From the NCBI GenBank assembly GCA_018673475.1, contig JABHCN010000020.1:1-64000 (forward strand): a stretch of 64,000 nucleotides of DNA. The letters are read 5' to 3'. Position numbers and translations under genes: made by a program. This document shows, one piece after another, positions 5,456 through 7,623 of the stretch (the first letter of the stretch is position 1; each line of letters begins with the position of its first letter). Source of the DNA: Actinomycetota bacterium (GTDB lineage: Bacteria > Actinomycetota > Acidimicrobiia > Acidimicrobiales > MedAcidi-G1). The notes under the pieces were generated by a model, which was not told the DNA's origin, did not search any database, and worked only from the letters and a program-made list of their open reading frames with translations.

Positions 5456-6040
5456 CTACTTGGCGATGTAGATGCCGAGCCAGATGACCATGTAGACCGC
5501 TACAGCCGCATACCAGTAGAGGGCCGCAGCGGATACAAGGTCACGGTTCCGGCTTGTGTCCTGCCCGCCCAGCGCCCGCAACAACAGTAGGCCGAGCCAG
5601 AACACTCCGACCAGGACCATTGCCATGTGGGCTCCGACGATGACGAACAGGAAGGTGGTGGCCTCGCTGTGATCAATCGGCAGGGCGATGTCGTTGAAGT
5701 AGAAGACCGTCTGGTTGAGCATCGCCACGCCCATAACGGCGGTGATGGCCATTGCGAGGTATGAGTGGATGCGGTCGTTGTTGATGACCGAGTACACCGC
5801 CCATGCCATGGTGATGGCCGAGAGGGCCATGGTGGCCATGTTCATGCCACCTGGTGGAAGGCGGATGGCGCCCTCTGGGAACCACTCCGTGCCCCAGGCC
5901 ATTGCGTCGGCCCGCCGTGAGAAGTAGAGGGCGAAGAGGCCACCGAAGAACATGAGCACGCCCGAAGTTGCCAGCGCCGACCCGATCACGAGGGTCCTCG
6001 GCCGGTTCGGTACCGCCGGTGAGAAGGTCGTGGAGGACAT
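5456..6040 (-). CDS. Heme-copper oxidase subunit III-like protein (second copy)
   Basis: A 194-residue protein with five membrane helices resembling subunit III. Supporting features are SGVLMFFGGLFALYFSRRADA near residue 26, the loop WFPEGAIRLPPGGMNMATM near residue 53, and HSEATTFLFVIVGAHMAMVLVGVFWL near residue 123, which aligns with the ctaE segment FHGVHVSLGILML. It is a clear paralogue, not a duplicate, of ctaE at 907-1506. Its ATG overlaps the stop of the divergent subunit I-like gene by one base (TGATG), so the two paralogues form a coupled I/III pair ahead of the canonical genes. Function beyond fold is unknown. Confidence 0.82.
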   Translation of the reverse strand: MSSTTFSPAVPNRPRTLVIGSALATSGVLMFFGGLFALYFSRRADAMAWGTEWFPEGAIRLPPGGMNMATMALSAITMAWAVYSVINNDRIHSYLAMAITAVMGVAMLNQTVFYFNDIALPIDHSEATTFLFVIVGAHMAMVLVGVFWLGLLLLRALGGQDTSRNRDLVSAAALYWYAAVAVYMVIWLGIYIAK

Positions 6041-7623
6041 CAGGCCCCCGCCTCTACGGTTGCGTCCAACAGGGGACTCTCAGAGGTCACTTCCACGGGA
6101 GAGGTAGACCACTCGAGTGTGTGGCCACCCCATGGGTCAGCCAGGGAGCGGGCACCCCTGAGCCTGAGTACACCGGTCACTAGCCATCCGAGGGCTCCGA
6201 CCAGGAGGTGTGCCGAGCCAACCAACGCCACCGTGTTCAACACATCGACGCCCGACCCGGGGTTCCCGGCACCTACCAGGTCTCCACCTGTGAAGTCTGC
6301 AAGGCCCATGAAACCGCTGATCGTGTCGGGCACGGCTATGAGCACGATTCCGACCGCAACAGCCAGGGCACTCGCCAGGCCAAAACCCTGGGGCACCACA
6401 CGACCGACGATGAGATCACCCCACCAGAGGGTTCCCGCCATGGCCGCCAGCAGGGCAGCGCCAATGGTGAAGGTGAACTGCGCGCCGGTGGTCGAGCGAT
6501 CGAGCAGGTCCAATGGGGCCACCGCCCGCAGGGCGCCCAGCACCGTACCGTCCAACAGGAAGAGGACCGACAGGACCGAGAGGTAGAGAGGTGCCGGCAT
6601 CCTGGTCCTTCGGCTACCCACCCCGCGTCGCAACACATCCACCAGGCCGACAAGCACCAGGAGGACCAGCGGGACGATCAGGAATGCCTCGACAACGAAG
6701 ATGGCCTGTTCCCTGATGGGGGTTCCGATGTCGAAGGCCGCCTGGGCGTAGGCACCGAACGAGAGCACTCCGATCAGTGCTGTCAGGACCAGAAGGGCCC
6801 GATGGTTTCCGTGTCGCCGTCGAGCGGCAACTGGAACGATGTCGCCGGCGATACCGACCAACGGCAGGGCGAAGGCGTAGACCTGCGGGTGGCTGAACGC
6901 CCAGGAGAGCTGCCCCCAGATCGTGTCCTCAACACCGAAGGCGACTGCCGACCGGCCTGTCAGGTCTACGTAGATGAGCACCGTGTTTGCCGCCAGAACC
7001 GGCAGCGTCACGAGCCAGATGGAACCGGCCACGAGAACACTCCATGCGAACAGGGGCACCCTTGAGAGGTTCATTCCTGCGGTTCGACCAGCCACGATCG
7101 TCGTCAAAATACAGACCGTTGCACAGCAGATCCCGCCGATGACCATCAACAGGCCCAGCAGGGTCAGGGCCAGGGCATCGGTTCGGCTGACGGCTCCCGG
7201 CGTGCCGAGACCACCGTCGATCACGAAACCGGCGACCGTGAACGCCGCACCCAGTGCCCACACCCAGAAGCCGAGGGCGGCAGCCCTCGGGAAGACAATC
7301 GACGATGCCCCCACCTGCAGGGGCACCACGGCGGTGGCGAGCCCCACGAAGACGGGAACCACCACCAACAGGACGAGACCGACGCGATAGGCACTCCAGA
7401 AGCGGAACAGCGAGTCGACATCTCCGAAGACCGCCATGCCGGTCAGGTCCATGCGCTCGACGCTCACCAGGAGGCCGGCCACGAGGGAGGCGACAAGCAG
7501 GAGCGCTCCCGAGGCCAGCCAGGCCCGACCGATGCGTAGGTGGTCGGTGGTAGTTACAGCCGCCTCAAGAGCGGTCGGGACGACGCCTCCGGTCCGGGTC
7601 GTGTCCGCTGCGGTCTCAGTCAT
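6040..7623 (-). CDS. Degenerate heme-copper oxidase subunit I-like protein lacking most metal ligands
   Basis: A 527-residue, ~12-helix protein alignable to ctaD by eye: PLQVGASSIVFPRAAALGFW matches [20 protein letters not shown], and SHPQVYAFALP matches GHPEVYILILP. The C-terminal loop HTLEWSTSPV matches RSLEWLTPNP. Of the six His ligands only CuB His245 remains, with Tyr249. The low-spin heme position is Tyr79, the CuB pair is Gln294/Ala295, and the HFH motif is Gln382-Phe-Thr384. The D-channel Asp and K-channel Lys are also gone. It cannot bind heme or CuB in the usual way, yet the reading frame is long and intact and it is the first gene of the operon. Start ATG 7623. Confidence 0.85.
   Translation of the reverse strand: MTETAADTTRTGGVVPTALEAAVTTTDHLRIGRAWLASGALLLVASLVAGLLVSVERMDLTGMAVFGDVDSLFRFWSAYRVGLVLLVVVPVFVGLATAVVPLQVGASSIVFPRAAALGFWVWALGAAFTVAGFVIDGGLGTPGAVSRTDALALTLLGLLMVIGGICCATVCILTTIVAGRTAGMNLSRVPLFAWSVLVAGSIWLVTLPVLAANTVLIYVDLTGRSAVAFGVEDTIWGQLSWAFSHPQVYAFALPLVGIAGDIVPVAARRRHGNHRALLVLTALIGVLSFGAYAQAAFDIGTPIREQAIFVVEAFLIVPLVLLVLVGLVDVLRRGVGSRRTRMPAPLYLSVLSVLFLLDGTVLGALRAVAPLDLLDRSTTGAQFTFTIGAALLAAMAGTLWWGDLIVGRVVPQGFGLASALAVAVGIVLIAVPDTISGFMGLADFTGGDLVGAGNPGSGVDVLNTVALVGSAHLLVGALGWLVTGVLRLRGARSLADPWGGHTLEWSTSPVEVTSESPLLDATVEAGA

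Follow-up and report, generated by a model that had tools for sequence, protein, structure and literature searches.

What is a second oxidase subunit I doing at the head of an oxidase operon when it has lost nearly all of the residues that would bind its metals? CuB and heme histidine ligands define the heme-copper superfamily, and a paralogue without them raises the question whether it is a gene in decay or a protein with another use. The case comes from a stretch of 64,000 nucleotides of Acidimicrobiia DNA (the window), in which the relevant genes lie on the minus strand in the 5' to 3' order CtaB-like, DI, D3, X, CtaC, CtaD, CtaE and small subunit IV:

7855..8745, minus strand: CtaB-like UbiA prenyltransferase, immediately upstream of the DI-D3-X module (Pfam UbiA, E 2.3e-63)
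6040..7623, minus strand: DI, paralogue of heme-copper oxidase subunit I, 527 aa (Pfam COX1, ligand table, predicted fold)
5456..6040, minus strand: D3, subunit III-like protein, 194 aa (Pfam COX3, E 1e-11; also second in the module of relatives)
4650..5435, minus strand: X, membrane protein of 261 aa (no Pfam family; CtaF-like N-terminal half, C-terminal half like a cupredoxin protein)
3460..4653, minus strand: CtaC, caa3-type subunit II carrying a CuA domain and, at its C-terminus, a cytochrome c (Pfam COX2, Cytochrom_C)
1499..3463, minus strand: CtaD, canonical subunit I (above the cut-off of the NCBIfam model TIGR02891; six His, D-channel Asp, K-channel Lys)
907..1506, minus strand: CtaE, canonical subunit III (Pfam COX3, E 9.6e-20)
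570..890, minus strand: small subunit IV (COX4_pro), 106 aa (PF03626, E 3.6e-10)

Judging from its context, the CtaB-like gene probably encodes a heme O synthase. The stop codon of DI overlaps the start codon of D3 (TGATG at 6040), in agreement with a preliminary description, made from the letters of the window, that had the paralogue coupled to a subunit III-like gene. Stop/start overlaps also join X to CtaC and CtaC to CtaD. The order DI-D3-X-CtaC-CtaD-CtaE recurs in 77 of the 79 loci whose downstream sequence exceeds 6 kb, and the two exceptions are apparently one contig or genome present in two collections. The heme c motif is found in 104 CtaC frames beside DI, while the four frames without it seem to be cut by locus ends. 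The DI module has no CuA subunit II of its own, the sole subunit II being the one that sits between X and CtaD.

By COX1 homology and fold, DI is a heme-copper oxidase subunit I. Its frame (7623-6040) is uninterrupted, with an ATG start and a single stop, and its start codon and N-terminus (MTxTE) are kept in relatives. The Pfam COX1 match (E 1.5e-44) spans 407 of the 436 profile positions, and the AlphaFold model (pLDDT 85, pTM 0.90) has the fold of subunit I. The model is closest to mycobacterial and corynebacterial CtaD, with a TM of about 0.8 to the solved mycobacterial CtaD, so that the earlier claims of an intact frame and of homology along its length both hold. In one genus (g5; L026-L031 and L033), DI is shortened and the C-terminal DPW..LEW motif is missing. 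A suspected frame break in two genomes (G010 and G023) was rejected, as the TGA within the DI match seems to be where C-terminally shortened proteins of 494-495 aa naturally stop.

Ligand positions were read from an alignment of DI with the canonical CtaD encoded in the same operon (1499-3463). In the window protein, the first low-spin heme His is replaced by Tyr79 and the second by Thr384, the high-spin heme His by Gln382, and the His-His pair of CuB by Gln294-Ala295, with His245 kept as the remaining CuB ligand. The D-channel Asp has become Ser and the K-channel Lys Val, and Tyr249 is retained. This confirms the reported loss of five of the six ligand histidines and of both channel residues. 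The accompanying statement that only His245 and Tyr249 remain is true for the window, but His245 varies across the family, in which many members have Gln, Ala, Asn, Arg or Leu at this position. Variation also affects the position of Tyr79: the first low-spin position is His in 55 of the 125 full-length DI proteins outside five early branches (the heme-less members), nearly all of them without the partner His. Because both positions vary, the identity of the single surviving His is incidental, and His245 is not a retained ligand.

The loss of CuB is general. The 148 sampled DI genes or loci come from two overlapping collections and include some partial ones; clustering at 72% identity reduces them to 44. 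Not one of them has the CuB His set. All six His and the K-channel Lys are present in 100 of the 108 canonical oxidase frames beside or near DI; the other eight are fragments, contain unread bases or, in one case, belong to a second oxidase with Ile in place of the Lys. The source genome (L002) itself encodes a second complete subunit I on contig C76 (6170-7618), with six His and with Ile at the K-channel Lys position.

We rejected the idea that histidines were hidden by misalignment, since no His or Cys column is at least 75% conserved among the 125 heme-less proteins. No Met column reaches 75% within the window protein either, the sole 75% Met of this set being a start-region position that is absent from the window. 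There is therefore no relocated ligand set, and conserved histidines elsewhere in the binding geometry, which the preliminary description had named as the observation that would overturn ligand loss, did not turn up. Several other residues are strongly conserved in the same proteins: Arg80 (Gly in CtaD), beside the old low-spin His, in 90%, Gln294 (a CuB His in CtaD) in 94%, and Gln103, Arg113, Arg180 and several Trp, Gly and Pro in at least 90%.

Arg80 and Gln294 may possibly fill the former heme pocket. Conserved as they are at or beside old ligand positions, they could also speak for a separate redox complex, in which another cofactor (for example a quinone or a carotenoid) would occupy the emptied pocket via Arg80, Gln294 and Gln382. 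We consider this unlikely, given that metal-binding residues are not conserved, that there is neither a CuA-type subunit II of its own nor, in the heme-less lineages, a copper domain, and that conserved polar residues may do no more than fill a cavity. The distribution of conservation along the protein is uneven: of the 47 columns conserved at 90% or more, 34 fall in residues 80-257 and the other 13 in residues 258-527. We take the first of these halves to be the one that faces subunit III in solved oxidase structures. Most ligands, the K-channel and the side towards subunit II belong to the second, more variable half. The preliminary description had also offered a transporter, and a transporter or a proton or ion channel on the oxidase scaffold would indeed account for a multi-helix membrane fold that is retained without catalysis. 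However, the D- and K-channel residues are gone, strongly conserved charged residues are few and the genetic linkage is to oxidase genes, all of which leaves this idea unsupported and makes it highly improbable.

Is DI then simply on its way out? It evolves faster than CtaD and has long branches, as an ordinary decaying duplicate would. Compared with five same-genus relatives (98 to 70% identity), its dN/dS is 0.11-0.26, whereas CtaD gives 0.04-0.06 for three pairs and, for the most distant pair, 0.22; in this last pair the dS of DI is high (1.0). The ratio for DI is about two to five times that for CtaD in three of the four comparable pairs, which also fits a freer role. DI is intact in 34 of the 37 genomes of the window's family, and the three without it are all incomplete (one lacks any COX1 match, another has just a different oxidase and the third just a CtaD-like fragment; two of the three have no caa3 CtaD match). 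This retention and the dN/dS values reject a pseudogene. Decay is also contradicted by open frames across the sampled genomes, conserved synteny, conservation of the derived residues and retention across the order, and we give it hardly any credence. Relatives with six His or with broken frames, which had been singled out in advance as pointing to decay, were not seen among the sampled genomes: none has the CuB His set, and the frames are open. Of the expectation that the substitutions would be fixed at a dN/dS below 1, the universal CuB loss and the measured ratios bear out one part, but Tyr79 and His245 vary. The earlier view that DI is maintained by selection agrees with the shared ligand loss, the dN/dS values and the gene order.

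Many of the relatives are MAGs, and the named ones are Acidimicrobiia records save for a few with unexpected or general labels. One of the modules (L113) belongs to the cultured Salinilacustrithrix flava EGI L10123, for which PMC11697166 reports that coxA, coxB and cyoC are highly expressed (RNA-seq SRR25905596). Three loci titled Terriglobia, Ferrithrix thermotolerans and Bifidobacterium breve (L069, L114 and L123, respectively) carry Acidimicrobiia-type modules and are possibly mislabelled MAGs. At another locus (L184:1081-2643), a cytochrome b match crosses a TAG into a second frame, which is followed by a Rieske-like frame; this is probably a b6f-like split gene rather than a broken one. 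According to a phylum-wide search, full-length X is confined to the same order (20 genomes out of about 30, the window's among them), and the matches in other classes are mainly to its C-terminal half, as a separate cupredoxin membrane protein beside an ordinary oxidase operon. Several DI-less members of the order encode a CtaC that lacks heme c, together with a CtaD from another branch. Together, the data show that DI-D3-X is a selected module of oxidase-core homologues that is fixed at the head of a caa3 operon in one actinobacterial order.

The third protein of the module, X, matches no Pfam family. A PDB sequence search with X returned chance hits only, and the low pLDDT (67) of its AF2 model makes that model unsuitable for a fold search. 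Its N-terminal half matches CtaF, i.e. subunit IV (hhalign E 3.7e-5, probability 71), and also resembles the subunit-IV-like C-terminal part of CtaD, which is moderate evidence at the sequence level that X is partly CtaF/subunit-IV-like. The C-terminal half is a homologue of the membrane portion of the membrane-cupredoxin protein, with hits in other classes reaching 2.9e-43; the copper domain itself is absent from X in the window. Because X looks partly CtaF-like, the module resembles a duplicated I/III/IV core joined to a cupredoxin protein, without subunit II. Membrane proteins bearing one or two cupredoxin domains are encoded just downstream of ctaC-D-E-F at loci of other actinobacterial classes (L164-L181; for example L165:8248-9228 and L164:6517-7215). 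At L046:7737-8861 and in other f7 genomes, X is extended at its C-terminus by about 100 residues or more; the extension has no copper ligands and may be a dead cupredoxin.

In a maximum-likelihood tree, DI forms one clade apart from CtaD (split support 100/100). Read with CtaD as outgroup, the first DI branches are L051, L052, L053 and L172, followed by L043. These five homologues lack CuB and keep three heme His, the bis-His low-spin pair and the high-spin ligand, neither of which the window protein has. The low-spin pair alone is retained in L039 and, deeper in, in L111 and L113, and it is not retained in the remaining DI, window included. A long branch of the early group (L187) likewise has only the low-spin pair and has lost the high-spin His and the copper domain. 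We rejected the possibility that the branching order is an artefact of the ligand columns, as the order of losses is unchanged when these columns are masked and long branches removed, although inner support is modest. A type-1 copper domain (His-Cys-His-Met) on X occurs in exactly the five members that keep the heme His (5/5). X also has a copper domain in L185, where DI falls outside the contig. When heme loss was compared with copper loss in independent pairs, there were two pairs, both in the same direction and too few for significance, and with only two independent contrasts the finding that loss of the heme His tracks loss of the copper domain is suggestive.

The tree supports a loss of CuB before the last common ancestor of the DI module, a later joint loss of the type-1 copper domain of X and the high-spin heme His, and then a loss of the low-spin heme pair, which left the window lineage with a cofactor-free I/III/IV-like membrane block. 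The graded loss, the link between heme and copper domain and the subunit-IV-like character of X are points that the preliminary description could not see. Its proposal that DI is a metal-free partner, serving in assembly, in structure or in a supercomplex, is the one that fits best.

We suggest, with a probability of roughly 0.55, that DI-D3-X is a cofactor-free structural partner of the caa3 oxidase, much as CydB is for CydA. DI would bind D3 via the retained subunit I-III architecture, X would fill a subunit IV-like position, and the block would pack against CtaC/D/E as a non-catalytic half, either in a pseudo-dimer or as a supercomplex spacer, where it could stabilise or position the oxidase. 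Like a cofactor-free partner, DI sits beside the active enzyme and is under purifying selection, and its heme-less members have no conserved cofactor-binding residues. One locus counts against the structural-partner reading: L186 (G039) has a heme-c CtaC and a CtaD with no DI nearby, and the module is therefore dispensable for some caa3-type oxidases. The same absence of the module from at least one heme-c CtaC/CtaD lineage speaks against the main rival, an assembly factor, according to which DI, D3 and X hold or template nascent CtaD and CtaE during insertion of heme a and CuB and are absent from the finished enzyme. A CtaB-like gene immediately upstream, a module that precedes the structural genes and a fold retained without cofactors would all suit a template, but a template would need neither the heme ligands nor the type-1 copper domain of the early members, and we regard this role as doubtful.

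In the early-branching relatives, the block could still hand electrons on from a blue-copper site to its two hemes, yet O2 reduction by normal CuB chemistry would be beyond it. More tentatively than for the structural partner itself, the early form may have been an undescribed electron-transfer complex of the heme-copper superfamily associated with caa3 (two hemes, no CuB, a III-like subunit, and type-1 copper fused to the IV-like membrane protein), with the window form as its cofactor-free descendant and an obligatory half of the oxidase. If true, this would be a documented path from enzyme to scaffold inside one operon.

In the open literature (subscription papers were outside the scope), we found neither a ligand-less oxidase subunit I nor the Acidimicrobiia module described before. 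In a large group of Acidimicrobiia, what was once a working enzyme seems to have turned into a conserved partner without catalysis, and the staged loss of ligands with surviving intermediates offers a view of a respiratory enzyme becoming a non-catalytic subunit. It makes testable the idea that accessory subunits of respiratory complexes are gained by duplication and cofactor loss. There is also a practical side: because DI matches COX1 models, annotation may take DI genes for cytochrome oxidase subunit I, and oxidase counts in Acidimicrobiia genomes would then be inflated.

Among known systems, A-type subunit I (CtaD/CoxA; Pfam COX1, TIGR02891) is the closest. DI shares its fold over most of the length, its PLQVGA, FPR, HPxVY and DPW..LEW motifs and its pairing with a III-like gene. 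It differs in that the module lacks its own subunit II, in a score of 199 bits against a cut-off of 671 for TIGR02891, a model curated for true CtaD, and in the absence of D- and K-channel residues; moreover, no DI member has the CuB ligand set, and the window lineage has no heme ligands. The membrane-anchored cupredoxin protein of other classes (L164-L181) shares the C-terminal half of X and, for early-branching X, the type-1 copper domain. It is, however, a separate gene after an ordinary oxidase, whereas X is joined to a CtaF-like N-terminal half and has mostly lost the copper domain.

Outside the superfamily, CydB of cytochrome bd is without cofactors in the pseudosymmetric CydA-CydB dimer (PMC9846854). 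CydB and DI are both cofactor-free and encoded beside the catalytic subunit, but they belong to unrelated fold families, DI has III- and IV-like subunits of its own, and the pseudosymmetric pairing that is proven by structure for CydB is one that we infer for DI. Inactive paralogues kept with an active enzyme are also known from the prozyme of trypanosome AdoMetDC (PMC5201418) and from a dead deoxyhypusine synthase paralogue (PMC3663545). Those partners activate their enzymes, whereas the likeness of DI to them is that of an inactive, retained copy.
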